64,000 bases of DNA from the NCBI GenBank assembly GCA_035471805.1, contig DATIPS010000055.1, positions 16,737 through 80,736 of the forward strand, given 5' to 3'. Shown one piece after another: positions 2,029 to 56,632 of the stretch. The notes under the pieces are model-generated. The model searched no databases. It was not told the DNA's origin and saw only the letters and a program-made list of their open reading frames with translations. Positions within the stretch are counted from its first letter, which is position 1. The number at the start of each line of letters is the position of its first letter. The translations under genes were made by a program, and so were the position numbers. The DNA is from Acidimicrobiia bacterium. GTDB lineage: Bacteria > Actinomycetota > Acidimicrobiia > Spongiisociales > JAHEDJ01.

Positions 2029-5000
2029 GTGAGTAACGGACAGTTCACGGACCTAGCGATCCTGGCGGGATTGATAGAGAGGCCGCTCCGGGTTGAGGAA
2101 GCGGCGGAAGCTCTCGACATCAGCCCGCAAGACGTCCTGGCTCGAGCCCACGAAGGCGTCGAGCAGGGTGTGCTGGCCAGCGAGGGATCAGGATACGTTC
2201 TCACCGGGGCTGCTCCGGAGGTCGATCCGCCGTACCTCGCCTACCTGGCGGGGAAGCTGGCCGAGACCCTCACAGCCCGTGGAGCCAACGGCGAGGCAGG
2301 AAAGCTCTTCATCCGCGCCGGGCGCGAGGTAGAGGCCATCGGCGCCTTGGTGGCGGCTGCACTCGGTGACGACGACGAGCAGGCAGCCAATCTCGCGCTC
2401 GAGCTCGATCCCGAACTCACCCCGGTTGAACGGCAGGATGCCGGGCGCCTGCACCTCATGCTGGCCCGTCATGCTCGCGACCACGGATCGAGCCCCACTG
2501 CCGACGAGCACGCCCGAAATGCGATCCGCCGCCTCGAAGGGCCGGAGCTGATCGACGCCCTCCGGTTCGGCGCCGCCGTTGCTTCGGACCTTCAAGACTC
2601 CCAGCGAGCCGAGAGTCTGACTGCGCTGGGCGCCGGAGTGGCGATATCGCTGGGCCGCAAAGACAAGGCCGGCACGATGCTCACCCTGCTGGGAAGAGAG
2701 CTCAACAGGCTGGGTTTTGCCGACGAGGCGGACGCCGCTCTGGCACGAGGCATCGCCATGCTCGACACCCACGGCGATCGAAGTGAGCAGTTCCTCGGCC
2801 GGATGAACGCCGGATGGGTCGCGTTCGACCGGGGAATCCTTCAGGAAGCGGAGATAACCTTCGACAACCTGACCGACCAGGCCGACGATCTCCACGACTC
2901 CGTGACCAAATCCAGCCAGATGGCCTATCACAGTCGTGCACTCGGAATGGTCGGCCGGATCAATGAGTCCAGGGTGCGCGCTGCCCAGGCCAGGGCGATT
3001 GCCGCCGAATACGGGGCAAGGGCCATCGAATTCCTCGTCGCTCTCGGCGAAGTGGAAGGGGCCCTGGCGTTTCGGCGCCCGGCAGACGCCGCCGAGGCGG
3101 TCGAGAACGCCGATCGAATTGCCCGCGAGCATCTGCCGTCGTGGCTGAACAGGACGCTCCATTACGAGGCGAAGGCCGCCCTGCTGGTCGGCGATCGGGA
3201 GACGGCGCGCCGGGCCCTGGCCGAGGCCCGGGAGCACACACCCAGCGGCATCGACGGTTGGCGCGTTCGGAATCTGATTCGCATCACCGAGATGGAGATG
3301 ATCGAAGGCGACTGGCCCCAGGGAGAGGCCGAGGACCTGACCGACGAGTTCCTCCAGTCCCGCCAGTATCTGGCGGCGGCTGAGCTGCTGACCATCCGGG
3401 CCGAGCGCGAGAAGGATGCCGAACTCGCCCTCCAGGCCGCTGCGCTCGCCGGACAGGTGGGTGCGCCGGCACATGCCGCGCTGGCGATCGAAGCGGCCGG
3501 GGCGTGGGACGACGCGCCGGTGGCCGCCGCCGCAGGTGAAATGATCCGCCGGGCGGCCGCCGCCATGCCGGATGACTGGCGAGACGGCCTGCGTGATGTC
3601 CCTGCGTTCGCGCACGCACTCGACGCCGAGCCCCTCGAGACACCCGATTCGGAGGCCCTCGACGATCTCCTCGCCGAAGTGCTGACCAGCGCCGGTTTGA
3701 CCGGCGACTTCGTCTTGAGCCCTGCACAGCGGCGAGCTCGCGGCCTCGTGCGGCGGAAGTCGCGCCGTCGCAAGACGTCCCCGGTGACGTGGCTGGCCGC
3801 GGCCGTCGGCGGAGCGGCGCTGGTCGTGTCGATCTTTGCCGTCACAGCCGGCGACGGGCCGGCTACCGGAACGACGCTGGCCGCGCAGCCGACCACCACC
3901 ACCTCCTCGACAACGACCACGACGCTGCCGGAGGATCCCAATCCGGAACCCCCCGAGCTGGGGCTCTTCGGCGAGTCCCAGTTCCGCGGCAGCGACGGTC
4001 TGACCGGAGTGGCGAGCGAGCCGGCGTTGACCGCCTTCAACGGGCACTACTGGGCGCAAAAGCCGGGAGGGTTCTTCCGCGCCGACCCGGTAGCCGCCGG
4101 CAGGTTTCTCTATCTGGGCAGCTCGACCAATGATCAGGTCTATCTGATCGACCTCACGACCGGAATAGTGGCGGACAGGCTCGAAGCCGACGGAAGGGTG
4201 CTCGTTCCGGTCGCGGTCGGTGATATGAACGTAGCGCGCGGCGACGGGACCGTGAAGATGGTGGTGTATGTTGCCGAAGGCGGCACCGTGCACGGTCGAC
4301 CGGTCGAGGGAGGCGGAGCATTCGCCCCCCTCTCGCTGGGATCCGACGTTTCAGCCGGCCCGGTCATCGCCGGCGGCCTGGCCGTGATCCCGACCGAGGG
4401 GGGCCGTGTGTATGCCCTCAACAGCGATGGCATCGAGTGGATCTATCCGGCCGAGGATCAGGAACCTCTAGCCGAGATCGGCGAGGAGGCCGCATATGCG
4501 GACGGGATCCTGTATGTCGTGGACCAATCGGGAGAACTGCATCTGATCGAGGCGGAAACAGGCACCGGCATCTGCAGCAGGAGGTTTGGCCAGCCCCCGG
4601 TCGGGAATCCGGTTGTGTCCGACGGAAACGTGTACGTGCAGGCCACGGGCGTGGTGGTCATTGCACCTGCAGGGACATGTGAGGGAACCGAGAGCGTCGT
4701 CGTTGCCTCGCCGGAGGTGACGAATCCTATTGCCGTGCAGGATGGAATCATCTTCTCCGCAGAGGCAAACCGGCTGTTCCCGTTTGATCCGAACCTGATG
4801 ACTCTCGAGTCGATGGGTTCCGACAGCCAGCTCGGACCCTGGGCGCCGTTCATCGCCGACTCCGACATAACGACTCCGCCGGTGATCGCCGGGGAACTAG
4901 TCATCTTTGGGACACAGAACGGAATCGTCTATGCGGTAGATCTGGCGACGGGCGAAGAGGTATGGCGTTTCGACGTCGGCGTGGCGACCGGTGAATCAGT

Positions 5001-10023: not shown

Positions 10024-10074
10024 TTTTCTCGGCAATACTGTGGTTCCCCACGCGCATCAGTATTGCTCAGAAAA
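10024..10074. repeat. Palindromic intergenic repeat, copy 1
   Basis: A 51-bp imperfect palindrome with 17-base arms (10024-10040 and 10058-10074; two internal mismatches) around a GC-rich loop. It belongs to the family also at 10085, 20968, 31281, 32169, 41612 and 41672. It is 4 bases after the isomerase stop, between convergent genes. Confidence 0.9.
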
Positions 10075-10084
10075 GTGGATCCCA

Positions 10085-10133
10085 TTTCTCCGCAATACTG
10101 TGGTTCCCCTGGCGCAACAGTATTGCTCGGAAA
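10085..10133. repeat. Palindromic intergenic repeat, copy 2
   Basis: A 49-bp member of the same family, arms 10085-10100 and 10118-10133, in tandem with copy 1 (10-base gap). The loop TGGTTCCCC start is shared with copy 1 only, so this pair probably arose by local duplication. Confidence 0.9.
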
Positions 10134-20967: not shown

Positions 20968-21017
20968 TTTTCTCAGCAATGCTGATAACCCCCGGGATCA
21001 ACAGTATTGCTGAGAAA
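20968..21017. repeat. Palindromic intergenic repeat, copy 3
   Basis: A 50-bp palindrome, arms 20968-20984 and 21002-21017, same family as the copy at 10024. It lies between the convergent MFS and rhomboid genes, starting 3 bases after the MFS stop. Confidence 0.9.
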
Positions 21018-24272: not shown

Positions 24273-24528
24273 GACGCCACACTATTCACAGAAGCGCCGC
24301 GACCATCTCTGCCGTGGGGTTTCAAGGCGAGCTGCCCGACCCTGCGCGGCAGCCGGTGGGTCCGTGCCCGCCGGTGGACTACTCCGACCGCGGTCGGGAT
24401 CATCACGATGTCTGTCAGGAAGTGAGAGGGGCCGGCCCGAACCGGACCGGACATAGGGTTGGGTCGTTCCCCATCGGCTCAGCCGGGGCTTGATACCGGT
24501 CCCGTGGCGGCGGGGTAGGGTGAATGAA

Positions 24529-25491
24529 GTGCATTTCAGCGAGTATTCCGTTGCCATTCGACCGGATCTCCTTGCAGGCCTCCGCAGCCTCTGGTCGAAC
24601 CTGGCCGCCCCCGGGACCTGGTGGTCGGGAGCGCAGCGGGTGGCAATCGCCGCAGCCGCCAGAGGCGGATCGGCTGAGGGCATTCCGGCCGCCGCAGCCG
24701 GTGCAGCCCGGACTATCTACTCCGACATCACATCTACTTCGCGCCGGTGGGTCGAGGATGTGCTGGCCGCCGGATTGACGATGCCGGCTTTCGTGGAGGT
24801 GATCGGAGTAGTCAGCCGTCTGGCCGCGGTCGACGAGTTCAGCAGGGCGCTCGGTCGGCCGCTGGAGCCGCTGCCGGATTCGCTGCCCGGCGCACCTTCC
24901 GGGGTTGAGCCACCTCCAAGTCGTCCCGGGAGATCCTGGGTGCCGATGATCGGAGGCATGTCGATCACGGGCGCGTTGAGTCTCGTCCCGGCCGAGGCCC
25001 GGGCTCAGGAGGAGATTCACGGGCCGCTCTACATGACCTACGCCCAGATGGCCGATCAGGGGTTCGAGCGTGAACTCACCCGTCCGCAGATGGAGTTGGT
25101 GGCCGGTCGGGTATCCGCAATCAATGAGTGCTTCTACTGAGTGCTCTCACACGTGATGATGCTCCGGGAGAGCAGCGAGGCATTTGGATACGAGGTAGAT
25201 CTCCGGGCTGTGACGGACCCTGCCGTCGATTCAGGCATTCCGCATGGGTCGCTGCTGATCGCTTTCAGCGATGCCGTGTTGAACCGGGCCGGCGCCGAAC
25301 CCCTCCGGGCGGAACTGATCGAGGCGGTCGGTGAAGACGGATTGGTGGCCACGGCCGGAGTGATTGCCAACTTCTCCATGATGAACCGGATCGCCGATGC
25401 CACCGGGATGCCGGTCGGCAAGAGGTTCCTGGCCGCGACCGAGGATGTGCGGGAGTTGCTGGGACTCGACCGCTTCATCCATGAGTCGTAG
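24529..25491 (+). CDS. AhpD/CMD-family protein, candidate selenoprotein (in-frame TGA = Sec204)
   Basis: One reading frame of 320 codons interrupted only by TGA at 25138-25140. The residues before it (VSAINECFY) and after it (VLSHVMMLR) join into the carboxymuconolactone decarboxylase/AhpD active site, with the TGA at the second Cys of CxxC: Cys201-Phe-Tyr-[TGA204]-Val-Leu-Ser-His208. A Glu sits 15 residues before (Glu189), as Glu118 does relative to the reactive Cys133 in mycobacterial AhpD, whose His137 is at +4 as here. The domain continues normally to residue 320. The N-terminal ~110 residues look like a degenerate CMD half without cysteines (TWWSGAQRVAIAAAAR). The likely role is peroxide or thiol redox chemistry in the cytoplasm. 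GTG at 24529 follows GGGGTAGG. Alternatives are a nonsense mutation or sequencing error. Confidence 0.85.
25141..25176 (+). promoter_or_regulatory. Candidate bacterial SECIS stem-loop
   Basis: Directly after the TGA, a perfect 7-bp stem forms between TGCTCTC (25142-25148) and GAGAGCA (25168-25174). It can be extended with single-base bulges by C25150-G25167 and C25152/G25153 with C25165/G25166. This leaves an 11-base apical loop whose second base is G. Bacterial SECIS elements sit within the coding region just 3' of UGA and favour a G early in the loop. The UGA-to-loop distance here (13 bases) is on the short side. Not computed with a folding program. Confidence 0.5.
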
Positions 25492-25950: not shown

Positions 25951-26011
25951 CTTATGAACCTCACGGAGCCGATTCGCGGTGCGGATCGCCCGCGGCGGGC
26001 AGAATGGGCCT

Positions 26012-27535
26012 GTGCCACTCCCTTTGCATCGTCTAGTTGAAGCCTCGTCCAGTGTCGCGGCCACTCGCAAACGGACCGAGAAGGTCGCGGTTCTCGCCGG
26101 CCTCTTCGTCGGGATGGGTGAAGGGGAGGTTCCGATCGTGGTGGCGATGCTGTCGGGCGAACCCAGACAGGGGAAGATCGGGATCGGTTATCGGGTCATC
26201 TCGACGATCGGTGTGCGCCCGGCTCCGGCCGCGACCGTCACGATCGTTGAAGTCGATGCGGCCCTCACCCAGATCGCCGGCACCTCGGGTCCGGGTTCGC
26301 AGGCTGCCAGGCGAGATCTCCTCGCCGGGCTCTTCGGCAGATGCACACGGGACGAACAGGACTTCCTGAGACGCCTGCTCATCGGCGACGTCCGCCAGGG
26401 TGCGCTCGAGGGAATCATGACCGACGCAGTGGCGAAAGCGGCAGGACTGCCGGTGGCCGAGCTTCGGCGGGCGGCGATGATGCAGCCCGATCTCGGCCGC
26501 GTGGCGGTGGTGGCGCTCACCCGGGGGGTCGAGGGCCTGGCGGAGATCAAGCTCCGGGTACTTCGCCCGGTTCAACCGATGCTCGCCAAGACGGCACCTT
26601 CTGCGGCGGAGGCCATCGAAGCGGAGGGTCTCTCATCTGTTGAATGGAAACTCGACGGGGTCCGTATTCAGGTCCATCGCTCCGCCGGAGAGGTCCGGGT
26701 TTTCACCAGAAACCTCAACGACGTCACCGACCGGCTGACCGACGTTGTCGATCTGGTCCTCGGATTCACAGGGGACCGATTCGTGCTCGATGGTGAGGTC
26801 ATGTCGCTTACCACCGACGGCAAGCCCCGACCGTTCACCGAAACGATGAGTCGTTTCGGAACCGAGGATCGTCGCGAAGACACCGCACCCGTCATTCCGT
26901 TCTTCTTCGATCTCCTGTGCGAGGGCGATGTGGACCTGACGGAACGGCCGCTTTCCGAACGGCAAGCAGTGCTGGACACGGTCGTGCCCCCGGCATACCG
27001 CGTGCCGAGGGTCCTGACGGACGACCCGGTTGAGGCGCAGAACATCCTCGATGAGTCCCGCAGTCGCGGCCATGAGGGAATCATGGTCAAGCGCCTCGAT
27101 TCACCCTACGAGGCAGGCCGGCGGGGCGCTACGTGGCTGAAGGTCAAACCCGCCCACACCCTCGATCTCGTCGTGCTGGCCGTCGAGTGGGGGAGCGGCC
27201 GGCGATCCGGATGGCTTTCGAACATCCACCTGGGGGCGCGCGATGCCTCTTCCGGTGATTACGTCATGCTCGGGAAGACCTTCAAGGGGATGACCGACGA
27301 CATGCTCGCCTGGCAGACGGAGCGGTTCCTCGAGCTGGAGACACATCGTGAGGGGCATGTCGTCTTCGTGCGGCCCGAGCAGGTGGTTGAAGTCGCCTTC
27401 GACGGTATCCAGGCGAGTTCCCGCTATCCCGGCGGTATGGCACTTCGGTTTGCCCGGGTGAAGGGATATCGGCCCGACAAGCAGGCGCGAGAGGCAGACA
27501 CGGTCGAAACGGTCCGGGCGATCTTCGGCGGTTGA
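26012..27535 (+). CDS. ATP-dependent DNA ligase
   Basis: A 507-residue ATP-dependent ligase. The adenylated Lys is in EWKLDGVRIQ (Lys213); other nucleotidyltransferase motifs include FTRNLNDVTDRL (motif Ia/III region), FVLDGEVMSL, EGIMVKRLDSPYEAGRRG and WLKVKPAHTLDLVVLAVEWG. An N-terminal DNA-binding domain (~200 residues) and a C-terminal OB domain flank the core, as in LigB-type enzymes of actinobacteria. It seals nicks in repair, backing up the NAD-dependent LigA. GTG start (VPLPLHRLVEA) based on the conserved N-terminus. Confidence 0.9.
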   Translation: MPLPLHRLVEASSSVAATRKRTEKVAVLAGLFVGMGEGEVPIVVAMLSGEPRQGKIGIGYRVISTIGVRPAPAATVTIVEVDAALTQIAGTSGPGSQAARRDLLAGLFGRCTRDEQDFLRRLLIGDVRQGALEGIMTDAVAKAAGLPVAELRRAAMMQPDLGRVAVVALTRGVEGLAEIKLRVLRPVQPMLAKTAPSAAEAIEAEGLSSVEWKLDGVRIQVHRSAGEVRVFTRNLNDVTDRLTDVVDLVLGFTGDRFVLDGEVMSLTTDGKPRPFTETMSRFGTEDRREDTAPVIPFFFDLLCEGDVDLTERPLSERQAVLDTVVPPAYRVPRVLTDDPVEAQNILDESRSRGHEGIMVKRLDSPYEAGRRGATWLKVKPAHTLDLVVLAVEWGSGRRSGWLSNIHLGARDASSGDYVMLGKTFKGMTDDMLAWQTERFLELETHREGHVVFVRPEQVVEVAFDGIQASSRYPGGMALRFARVKGYRPDKQAREADTVETVRAIFGG

Positions 27536-30600: not shown

Positions 30601-31246
30601 CGGTGGGGTCCGGGCCGGAGGCGCCGGGCTCATCGAGATCGACGCCGAGCGATTCGGCCAGCACCCGTATCTGCCGCTCGAGGGTCGCGATCCGGTCGAT
30701 TATCGGGTCGGTCTGTTCGGACGGCTCGTGCTGGGGAGATTCGGCGTCTGAAGGGCCGGTGATCAGTGTGCGGAATCGATTCTCCTTCTGGCCGGGTTCT
30801 CTGGGCAGCCGTTCGACCAGGGGTTCGACTCTTCCCATCAGGTCGTCGAGTAGGACTTCGATTGTCTCGAGGGGCTGCTCGACCGGGAAATACCGCTCGG
30901 TGCGCGATCTGAGTTCTCCGGGTGTCTGCGGCCCGCGCAGGAGAAGCACCGCCAGGATCGCAACCTGATCAGAGTCGACCTGCAAGGCGTCCTCTGCTTT
31001 GTGCAGATACTTGAGCGTCCGGCCGCCGCTGGCCCTCGTCAGGCCGACGATCCCTTTGTCGTCGAGCGATCGGATCGTTCGCTCGACCGTGAGCTCGTCG
31101 TAGTCGACGACCGGGTTGCGGTTCGTCTTCTGGTTGCAGGCGGCCACCAGGGCGTTGACGGTCATCGGGTAGTACTCGGGCGTCGTTCGTCCCTTCTCGA
31201 TGAGACAACCCAGCACCCGGGCTTCTTCGGCAGTGAGCAGCTCCAT
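30593..31246 (-). CDS. YceH-family (DUF480) protein
   Basis: A 217-residue protein. Residues 1-170 match YceH/DUF480, a tandem winged-helix protein: LLTAEEARVLGCLIEKGRTTPEYYPMTVNALVAACNQKTNRNPV, RSLDDKGIV and LLLRGPQTPGELRSRTERY. The C-terminal tail contains a short coiled coil (IATLERQIRVLAESLGV). Probably DNA-binding; physiological role unknown. ATG start. Followed by the coupled VOC gene; divergent from the LLM oxidoreductase with palindrome copy 4 in between. Confidence 0.86.
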   Translation of the reverse strand: MELLTAEEARVLGCLIEKGRTTPEYYPMTVNALVAACNQKTNRNPVVDYDELTVERTIRSLDDKGIVGLTRASGGRTLKYLHKAEDALQVDSDQVAILAVLLLRGPQTPGELRSRTERYFPVEQPLETIEVLLDDLMGRVEPLVERLPREPGQKENRFRTLITGPSDAESPQHEPSEQTDPIIDRIATLERQIRVLAESLGVDLDEPGASGPDPTDA

Positions 31247-31280
31247 GGGTACGAAGAGTAGGCGTCCGCGAGTCCCCTCG

Positions 31281-31330
31281 TTTTCTCAGCAATACTGTTG
31301 CTCCCTGAGATCAATAGCATTGCCGAGAAA
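31281..31330. repeat. Palindromic intergenic repeat, copy 4
   Basis: A 50-bp member, left arm 31281-31297, right arm ending 31330. It lies in the divergent yceH/LLM intergenic region, so here it cannot be a terminator. It differs from copy 5 at a single base. Confidence 0.9.
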
Positions 31331-31358
31331 CGCCCGCCCCACTCCTGGAGGTCAAACA

Positions 31359-32159
31359 GTGTCGCAGGTCCGCATAGCCGTACAGATTCACCCTCAGCAC
31401 GGAACCTACGAAGCGATCCGCTCAGCGCTTTCTCAGGCGGAGGAAATGGGCGTCGACGTCGCATACAACTGGGACCACTTCTATCCGCTCTACGGTGAAC
31501 CGGACGGCGCGCATTTCGAGGCCTGGACCATGCTTGCTGCATGGGCCGAGCAGACGGAGCGCATTCAGATCGGACCCCTCGTCACCTGTAACTCCTATCG
31601 CAACCCGGAGCTTCTGGCCGACATGGCGCGCACCGTCGACCATGTCTCCGGGGGCCGGCTGATCTTCGGCATCGGGTCGGGTTGGTTCGAGCGCGACTAT
31701 GTGGAATACGGCTACGAGTTCGGAACCGCCCCGTCCCGGCTGCGCGATCTCGGTAAGGCGCTTCCCCGAATCGAGGAGCGGTGGTCGAAGCTCAACCCGG
31801 CGCCGACTCGCAAGATACCTGTCTTGATCGGCGGTGGCGGTGAGAAGGTCACGCTTCGGCTGACCGCCCGGCATGCCGATGTGTGGCATTTCTTCCCGAA
31901 GAATCCGGAAGCCATGGCTCACAAGATGGCGATTCTCGACAAGTGGTGTGAGGTCGAGGGGCGTGACCCCGAGGCCGTCGAGCGCAGCGCGGGCGTGCAC
32001 CCACACCTTCTAGTTGAGGATCTCGCCAAGGCCGACGCCTATGCCGATATGGGTGTTCAGGAGATAACGCTCGGGGTTGGTGGGCCCGACTTCGACCTGA
32101 GTGGGGTTCAGAAGTGGCTCGAATGGCGGGATCGGACGAACGAACGTCTGGCCGGCTAG
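31359..32159 (+). CDS. LLM-class (probably F420-dependent) oxidoreductase
   Basis: A 266-residue luciferase-like monooxygenase-fold TIM barrel: VRIAVQIHPQHGTYEAIRSALSQAEEMG opening, YNWDHFYPLYG, IGPLVTCNSYRNPELLADMARTVDHVSGGRLIFGIGSGWF and a PVLIGGGGEKVTLRLTARHADVW block. Such proteins in actinobacteria usually use F420 (some FMN) as hydride carrier. GTG at 31359 with TGGAGG upstream; upstream in-frame sequence lies in the repeat. The gene is bracketed by near-identical palindromes (copies 4 and 5). Confidence 0.86.
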   Translation: MSQVRIAVQIHPQHGTYEAIRSALSQAEEMGVDVAYNWDHFYPLYGEPDGAHFEAWTMLAAWAEQTERIQIGPLVTCNSYRNPELLADMARTVDHVSGGRLIFGIGSGWFERDYVEYGYEFGTAPSRLRDLGKALPRIEERWSKLNPAPTRKIPVLIGGGGEKVTLRLTARHADVWHFFPKNPEAMAHKMAILDKWCEVEGRDPEAVERSAGVHPHLLVEDLAKADAYADMGVQEITLGVGGPDFDLSGVQKWLEWRDRTNERLAG

Positions 32160-32168
32160 GAACGTTCG

Positions 32169-32218
32169 TTTTCTCAGCAATACTGTTGCTCCCTGAGATC
32201 AACAGCATTGCCGAGAAA
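32169..32218. repeat. Palindromic intergenic repeat, copy 5
   Basis: A 50-bp member, arms 32169-32185 and 32203-32218, between the LLM gene and deoD (both forward). One base differs from copy 4. Confidence 0.9.
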
Positions 32219-41611: not shown

Positions 41612-41661
41612 TTTTCTCAGCAATGCTGTTGCGCGTGGGGATCAACAGTATTGCGGAGAAA
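41612..41661. repeat. Palindromic intergenic repeat, copy 6
   Basis: A 50-bp member, arms 41612-41628 and 41646-41661. Its GCGCGTGGGGATCAA loop is identical to that of copy 7. Confidence 0.9.
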
Positions 41662-41671
41662 CCGGGTGTCT

Positions 41672-41720
41672 ATTCTCAGCAATGCTGTTGCGCGTGGGGA
41701 TCAACGGTATTGCCGAGAAA
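41672..41720. repeat. Palindromic intergenic repeat, copy 7
   Basis: A 49-bp member, arms 41672-41687 and 41705-41720, in tandem with copy 6 (10-base spacing, as in the 10.0-kb pair). It ends 11 bases before the promoter-like element of the FTR1 gene. Confidence 0.9.
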
Positions 41721-55054: not shown

Positions 55055-56632
55055 ATGGAGTGGTTTGACACCTGGGGTCTGAGCCTCATTGTGTTCCTCC
55101 CGCTGGTGGGGGCTCTGCTCGTAGTGCTCCTGCCTCGGGAGCAAGAAGAGAGTCACAAGTGGATCTCGCTGATCACCACGGGAATCGTGTTGATCCTCAG
55201 CGTCGTGGCGGCCGCCAACTTCGACTTCGGTGCTGCCAAGTCGTTCCAGTATGAGGTGAACGAGTCGTGGATCTCGGCGATCGGGGCCAACTATCACGTT
55301 GGAGTGGACGGCATCAGCTTGCCGCTGCTCGTCCTGTCCGGTTTCGTGACCCTCCTGTCGGTCATCTACTCGTGGAATCACTGGGAAGAGCCGCGCAACC
55401 CAAAGGCCTTTCTGGCCCTCATGCTCGTGCTGCTCACCGGCATGAACGGAACCTTCGTGGCGCTCGACCTGGTCCTGTTCTTCATCTTCTTCGAACTGGT
55501 GTTGCTGCCGATGTACTTCATGATCGGCATCTGGGGTGACAAGTCCGAACGGGAGCTTCCGGTGTTCGGCAAGACGGTCTCCGTCCGTCTCTACGCGGCC
55601 ATCAAGTTCTTCCTCTTCACACTTTTCGGATCCGCCTTCATGCTGCTGGGCTTCCTGGCGCTCTACCTCAACTCGGCCGACACGGTCGCCGGAAGGACGT
55701 TCGACATCCCGGCCCTCATCGACAGGGCGCCGGAGCTGACCATGTTGCCGGTGGCCGGATGGATCTTCGCGGGTCTCTTCCTCGGATTTGCCGTGAAGGT
55801 TCCGATGTTCCCGTTCCACACCTGGCTGCCGGACGCGCATACCGCCGCACCGACCGTCGGTTCGGTTCTGCTGGCTGCCATTCTCCTGAAGCTCGGCTCT
55901 TACGGTTTCATCAGGATCGCCATCCCGATGCTTCCCGAGCAGGCGAAACAGTGGGCACCTGCGATAGCGGTGCTGGCGGTGATCGGCATCATCTACGGCG
56001 CGCTGGCCTGTCTGGCCCAGACCGACATGAAACGTCTCATCGCCTTTTCCTCAGTCGGTCACATGGGGTTCGTGATGCTCGGCATCGCCACTCTCACAGA
56101 CGTCGGGATCAACGCCGCAATCATCGGCATGGTCGCTCACGGCGTGATCACCGGACTCTTGTTCTTCCTGGCCGGATCGATGAGCCATCGGTACCACACG
56201 CGCGACATGGGGCGCCTCGGCGGCAATCAGAAACTGATGCCGATGCTCGGCGGGATCCTCGCCTTCACGGCTATGGCGTCACTGGGACTGCCGGGACTGG
56301 CCGGCTTCTGGGGTGAGTTCATGGCGCTCCTCGGGTCCTACAGCCCGCTGGAGGGATTGTCGATCGGACTCTTCCGCACGGCGATGGTGATCGGCGCCGT
56401 CGGCACGGTGCTGACCGCCGGGTATCTGCTCTGGATGCTCCAGAAGGTCAATCTGGGTGAGCCGAACGCCGAGTGGGACGATCACGAGTTCCACGACGCC
56501 GACAAGTTCGAACTCGCAGCATGGGTGCCTCTCATCGTCACGATCATCGCCATCGGTGTATATCCGAAGATCGTTTTCGGTGCTACGACCGAAGCCGTGG
56601 AAGCGCTCGTCAAGACTGCCTTTGGAGGCTGA
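55055..56632 (+). CDS. nuoM: NADH-quinone oxidoreductase subunit M
   Basis: A 525-residue antiporter-like subunit with 14 helices. FFIFFELVLLPMYFMIGIWG carries the key Glu, VKVPMFPFHTWLPDAHTAAPTVGSVLLAAILLKLGSYG the Lys/His block and DMKRLIAFSSVGHMGFVMLG the second Lys. ATG at 55055, 15 bases after nuoL with an AGGAGGACG site. Confidence 0.96.
   Translation: MEWFDTWGLSLIVFLPLVGALLVVLLPREQEESHKWISLITTGIVLILSVVAAANFDFGAAKSFQYEVNESWISAIGANYHVGVDGISLPLLVLSGFVTLLSVIYSWNHWEEPRNPKAFLALMLVLLTGMNGTFVALDLVLFFIFFELVLLPMYFMIGIWGDKSERELPVFGKTVSVRLYAAIKFFLFTLFGSAFMLLGFLALYLNSADTVAGRTFDIPALIDRAPELTMLPVAGWIFAGLFLGFAVKVPMFPFHTWLPDAHTAAPTVGSVLLAAILLKLGSYGFIRIAIPMLPEQAKQWAPAIAVLAVIGIIYGALACLAQTDMKRLIAFSSVGHMGFVMLGIATLTDVGINAAIIGMVAHGVITGLLFFLAGSMSHRYHTRDMGRLGGNQKLMPMLGGILAFTAMASLGLPGLAGFWGEFMALLGSYSPLEGLSIGLFRTAMVIGAVGTVLTAGYLLWMLQKVNLGEPNAEWDDHEFHDADKFELAAWVPLIVTIIAIGVYPKIVFGATTEAVEALVKTAFGG

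Follow-up and report, generated by a model that had tools for sequence, protein, structure and literature searches.

The 64,000-nt window analysed here (contig DATIPS010000055.1 of the Acidimicrobiia bacterium assembly GCA_035471805.1, positions 16,737–80,736) contains a gene of 320 codons in which a single in-frame UGA is likely decoded as selenocysteine (Sec). The open stretches on either side of this UGA form one reading frame, and we consider it probable that the product, a member of NCBIfam family NF041238 with the predicted fold of a fused pair of AhpD-like domains, reduces organic hydroperoxides at a Cys-Phe-Tyr-Sec site. The frame (24529–25491, forward strand) contains exactly one TGA (25138–25140, codon 204) and ends on TAG, with Glu189, Cys201-Phe-Tyr-Sec204 and His208 all where a preliminary description of the locus had placed them. 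Aside from the Sec column, Cys201 is the only cysteine of the protein, none preceding it. Under the standard code the locus is split into two open reading frames (ORFs; 24490–25140 and 25141–25491), as that description had anticipated for automatic annotation. The start codon is uncertain (GTG 24529, GTG 24520 or TTG 24490); in two relatives from the genus (L043 and L047) the counterpart of 24529 is the sole start within the range tested.

Five same-genus genomes gave a match. TGA occupies the same codon in four of these (the window's own, G105, G373 and G030), an agreement that speaks against a sequencing error at 25138–25140; in the fifth (G201) the match covers profile positions 66–158 only. 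The NF041238 profile covers both halves of the window gene, and dN/dS in the six pairs formed by the four same-genus genes, pairs that are not independent of one another, was 0.12–0.20 before the TGA and 0.13–0.29 after it, pointing to purifying selection on both gene halves.

Across the class, 73 of 395 genomes had an NF041238 match over the cut-off and, among the matches listed, all had a single TGA apart from one in G245 (none) and the N-terminal fragments of split matches in G341 and G268. This search, together with a single scan of contigs from named genomes (the best 80 of 124), supplied 112 loci, of which 111 yielded 113 family rows, with repeat retrievals of the same place included; L090, which has the family's N-terminal half (N-half) and no match to the active-site motif, stands outside these rows, as do three low-scoring rows that belong to another small AhpD family. 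The homologues had been expected to show Cys or Sec at this column, and did so throughout: Sec in 110/113 rows and Cys in three, namely L087 (Acidimicrobiia, TGC), L049 (G245, TGC) and L083 (Pseudomaricurvus alkylphenolicus, TGT). Database proteins mostly stop short of the column. The window protein retrieved 92 relatives, 90 ending in CxY just before it and two ending otherwise; the L083 Cys protein retrieved 178, and among the 120 listed 114 end at the column and six are full-length CxxC forms. Full-length Cys forms may be under-counted, since only the ~8,000 candidates sharing most words were scored and 120 of the 178 were listed. Standard annotation loses such genes: of the 212 homologous proteins examined, 204 stop immediately ahead of the Sec column.

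Family members can also be paired. In one Acidimicrobiia assembly (L085) two lie in tandem (2471–3670 and 3687–4931), both with UGA and a CxLC motif in the N-half, and on marine Acidimicrobiia contigs two members are found ~25–28 kb apart (L096/L134, L104/L109, L122/L126, L112/L116 and L100/L117). Beside L101, L126 and L134, the opposite strand carries a small AhpD-like ORF containing ENECHYU or ENDCHYU.

The genome from which the window derives (2.85 Mb in 70 contigs, 97% complete) has all four of the genes that the preliminary description had proposed to look for: SelA (431 bits; selA adjoins selB), SelB (341 bits), SelD (401 bits) and tRNA-Sec (75.2 bits, anticodon TCA). SelD is itself of the Sec type, with an in-frame TGA at the catalytic position (SHGSGUACKLG; L017:1501–2430, equivalent to C31:62529–63458 of the same genome), and two matches of AhpC-TSA fold have TGA at a UxxC motif (GDWUPYC and HFGULTC). 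Together with the window gene, this gives the genome at least four likely selenoproteins. Rfam and ARAGORN searches of the 64-kb window found nothing. SelB was also considered as a correlate of Sec versus Cys and proved not to discriminate, being over the cut-off in 10/12 Sec genomes tested and in 2/3 Cys genomes; the Sec genomes without it were G373 (56% complete) and G400.

The DNA downstream of the UGA, aligned on this codon without gaps and collapsed where identical, gave 91 distinct sequences (88 Sec, 3 Cys). A hairpin resembling a selenocysteine insertion sequence (SECIS), TGCTC-nG-nnn-GAGCA, occupies positions +23 to +37 (UGA = 1–3), starting 19 nt past the UGA. At least four of its five pairs and the loop G were present in 88/88 distinct Sec genes, against 18.8 expected when codons were redrawn from each gene's synonymous usage, although the sequences are related and the count does not translate into a probability. 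Among these Sec genes, L026 and one of the L085 copies each lack one of the inner four pairs. The Leu codon of the hairpin was CTC in 85/88 (32% in the genes) and its Ser codon AGC or AGT in 86/88 (35% in the genes), with varying residues in between (RE, SW, GL, RA). C-G to T-A changes preserving a pair were seen in L078 and in one copy in L085, and on 21 sequences 85% of cells paired, compared with 30–48% when the pattern was slid; covariation is weak, the core being invariant. Folding energy lent no support in the SECIS region of the window (z −0.17, 81/200 shuffles at least as good), and the mean z against synonymous redraws over 31 sequences was −1.0. A conserved G in the apical loop is described for bacterial SECIS elements in figure legends (PMC1088965, PMC1794560). 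The window has 152 frames in which a lone TGA separates two long open stretches, and the window gene alone shows the hairpin pattern within the next 45 nt. The TGA at 56630, at one time a candidate, is the junction of two genes, which we presume from their sequence to encode NADH dehydrogenase antiporter subunits. Among the Cys genes, the hairpin is missing in L049 and L083 and is kept in L087 (230–1348; TGCTC CGGGC GAGCG), from a SelB-bearing Acidimicrobiia genome, where it is likely the fossil of a recent change from Sec to Cys.

The family is not new, having already been catalogued as the selenoprotein NF041238, ‘alkylhydroperoxidase-related (seleno)protein’ (AhpD_rel_CFYUT), which the window protein matched at 297.5 bits (E 1.5e-88, cut-off 175). 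The likeness consists of a whole-length family match (of the profile, only position 65 onwards is matched by the window protein), the CFYU motif, here C201-F-Y-U204, and a SECIS-like hairpin downstream; the window protein differs in having Val after U, rather than the Thr of the family name, and in missing the N-half CxLC of other members. ‘Hypothetical protein 1’ dates from 2005, when it was introduced with a CXXU motif, a predicted SECIS and four sequences containing Sec (PMC1088965); its table row there reads 4, 7, 0, 5, which we take to count Sec and Cys forms, both in the Sargasso data and among sequenced genomes. In a 2026 review (PMC13188914), NF041238 appears under the name ‘AhpD-related protein (hypothetical protein 1, Sargasso Sea metagenome)’, with CxxU. 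What this analysis adds is strong evidence that Sec is decoded in this lineage, the conservation of the hairpin, the prediction of a fused fold like that of sestrins, and a set of Cys relatives, one of them with the hairpin.

The C-terminal half (C-half) belongs to the AhpD/CMD superfamily, as its Pfam match shows (PF02627, residues 170–215, 25.5 bits, gathering cut-off 23). The window protein scored below the cut-off for classical AhpD (TIGR00777, 13.9 against 191.95 bits) and for TIGR01926, and no further TIGR01926 matches were found in its genome. It differs from single-domain AhpD and peroxidase-related proteins (PF02627, TIGR01926; 6k40, 2prr, 1knc) in being, by prediction, a fused double domain, and in the replacement of the second Cys by Sec. 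The preliminary description's AhpD/CMD-family selenoprotein is retained as regards the family and the Sec reading, with a predicted fused double AhpD fold in place of a single AhpD. The intervals from Glu to Cys (12), Cys to Sec (3) and Sec to His (4) are those of mycobacterial AhpD, in which the second Cys is the one that reacts with peroxide.

The predicted fold matched Sestrin2 over both halves, and residues ~133–306 of the C-half matched single-domain AhpD structures. Many relatives carry CxLC in the N-half: it was present, by motif pattern, in 10/111 full-length genes, and also in 59/92 database proteins retrieved with the window protein and in 115/120 of those listed for L083; the carriers placed among the 111 genes belong to Pseudomonadota, Binatota, Acidobacteriota and a few Acidimicrobiia. 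In the profile alignment of CxLC-bearing N-halves against the C-half, CxLC falls on CFYC (p 0.0038; the value is 0.016 for all N-halves and 0.017 for those without CxLC), but these alignments are weak and internal duplication rests mainly on the predicted fold. In the L083 model, CxLC is surrounded by a helix (37–50), a turn and a helix (54–61), as is the C-half site (229–242, 246–263). A tree of 89 sequences showed few label changes (N-half CxxC with Sec, 4 versus 8.7 when shuffled); L081 is tagged there as having no N-half motif because its start was cut off. The N-half CxLC was likely lost in the window's lineage, on a tree with a weakly supported backbone around the window clade and an uncertain root.

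The double AhpD-like fold in one chain, here predicted, is a feature of sestrins, and human Sestrin2 (5t0n, 5dj4, 5cuf), at 10% identity in structural alignment, is the closest two-domain fold, with the same kind of site. By sequence profile, no sestrin chain was found among PDB chains at E ≤ 10 (profile A3) or E ≤ 0.01 (A1), and the exact string of the GATOR2-binding motif of sestrins, DDYDY, is absent from the window protein. Sestrin2 reduces cumene hydroperoxide and has Cys125 in its N-half and none in the C-half (PMC4674687), whereas the window protein has CxxU in the C-half and no N-half Cys. Bacterial fused AhpD proteins have been likened to sestrins (Corynebacterium ureicelerivorans, Comamonas aquatica, a Rokubacteria CMD protein and E. 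coli YciW; PMC11429811); by description, the first two resemble the window protein in having two AhpD-like halves and a cysteine pair in the C-half only. These proteins are described with cysteines, and ‘seleno’ occurs in that paper only for selenomethionine labelling. One could speculate, though we rate it as rather improbable, that NF041238 comprises bacterial ‘seleno-sestrins’: an ancient fused AhpD pair with sites CxLC (N) and CxxU (C), from which lineages lost opposite sites, Acidimicrobiia keeping only the C-terminal selenium site and sestrins only the N-terminal one, their C-half thereby freed to become a nutrient sensor.

In the mechanism that we propose, the UGCUC-nG-nnn-GAGCA hairpin would direct SelB, carrying Sec-tRNA(UCA), to the UGA. 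On the model of AhpD and Sestrin2, the Sec204 selenolate, aided by a Glu189 and His208 relay, would attack an alkyl hydroperoxide; Cys201 would then close a selenenylsulfide with Sec204, which a reductant of thioredoxin or lipoamide type would open. The Cys-free N-half likely serves as a built-in second subunit, in place of the dimer that ordinary AhpD-like proteins form. No typical AhpC partner is evident: PF10417 had no match in the genome (matches in 8/14 control genomes), yet there were nine AhpC-TSA matches.

The proposal, made in the preliminary description, that this actinobacterium reads UGA as Sec is supported by the machinery, the column, selection on both halves and the hairpin, and the same evidence bears on other readings of the codon. 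Two ORFs under the standard code, the second of which begins at a GTG immediately following the TGA, are what would be seen if the TGA were a true stop, either a nonsense mutation or the end of a regulated 203-residue product, with the downstream part decaying or a separate gene. This is very improbable given the low dN/dS downstream, the position of the TGA on a catalytic column that holds Cys in three relatives, and the hairpin in every distinct Sec gene; nor, as had been argued at the outset, would a neutral nonsense mutation be likely to choose this codon, at which TGA stands in four same-genus genomes and 110/113 family rows. Reading of UGA as tryptophan or another ordinary residue, by a recoded code or suppressor tRNA, is if anything more improbable still: the genome has the complete Sec pathway, its other in-frame UGAs found are at redox positions (SelD and the two UxxC peroxiredoxin-like proteins), non-Sec relatives have Cys and never Trp at the column, and the hairpin has the loop G of bacterial SECIS elements.

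An alternative that accepts Sec and departs from our reading in chemistry deserves more weight, although we regard it as unlikely: the protein could share the AhpD fold and yet act as another thiol or selenol oxidoreductase, such as a disulfide reductase or dehalogenase. Against this, E...CxxU...H keeps the AhpD spacing, both relay residues are invariant in 26/26 aligned sequences (as are the Cys and Sec columns), and cumene hydroperoxide is reduced at the same kind of site in Sestrin2 (PMC4674687). A hydroperoxide reductase remains our preferred reading.

The gene neighbourhood was compared at 83 loci (L059–L138, L049, L052 and the window; up to 6 kb each side), and the genes flanking the window gene reappeared mostly in its own genus. 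One exception is an ATP-dependent DNA ligase gene (25979–27535, same strand), which lies 1.2–4.1 kb downstream in 6/83 loci, two of them (L061, L063) outside the genus; another is the 319-residue protein at 31200–32159, with relatives close to L074 and L124. Neither points to a redox partner, and the neighbourhood was set aside as a clue to function. By Pfam, the neighbours include DAO oxidoreductase, amidohydrolase, PNPOx-like, DNA ligase, nitroreductase, SpoU methylase, rhomboid and T2SSE ATPase proteins; 2/10 have no Pfam match. Separately, the window has a ~49 bp palindromic repeat, REP- or terminator-like, whose arms resemble TTTCTCRGCAATRCTG; the 14 arm matches form 7 inverted pairs, against 0.06 expected by chance, and 2/5 sites are doubled. 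Coordinates are collected in the table.

Table. Coordinates of the selenoprotein gene and other features (window positions unless a contig is named).
Feature	Position	Strand	Basis
Whole gene, NF041238 selenoprotein, 320 residues, UGA likely read as Sec	24529..25491	+	
N-terminal AhpD-like half (~residues 1–120), no Cys; predicted built-in partner domain	24529..24888	+	Predicted fold, Sestrin2 match over both halves
C-terminal AhpD/CMD half (~residues 133–312), active site	24925..25464	+	Pfam CMD 170–215; structural matches to single-domain AhpD ~133–306
Glu189 codon, predicted proton relay	25093..25095	+	Invariant 26/26 aligned sequences
Cys201 codon, putative resolving Cys of CxxU motif	25129..25131	+	Invariant 26/26 aligned sequences
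In-frame UGA, likely Sec204	25138..25140	+	Column conservation, same-genus TGA
His208 codon, predicted proton relay	25150..25152	+	Invariant 26/26 aligned sequences
SECIS-like mini-hairpin TGCTC-CGGGA-GAGCA, conserved loop G at 25166	25160..25174	+	Aligned downstream DNA
Palindromic repeat copies	10025–10073, 10085–10133, 20969–21017, 31282–31330, 32170–32218, 41613–41661, 41672–41720		
UxxC protein of AhpC-TSA fold, likely selenoprotein (L140)	Own genome C40:800–2400		TGA at UxxC
UxxC protein of AhpC-TSA fold, likely selenoprotein (L141)	Own genome C17:23000–24400		TGA at UxxC

The family introduced in 2005 as ‘hypothetical protein 1’ now has a predicted sestrin-like double-domain shape, and with it a testable idea of function. 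Its bacterial members offer relatives in which the division of labour within a fused AhpD pair may be studied, for which L087, with Cys and the hairpin kept, and full-length Cys relatives such as that of Pseudomaricurvus (L083) are ready comparison partners.
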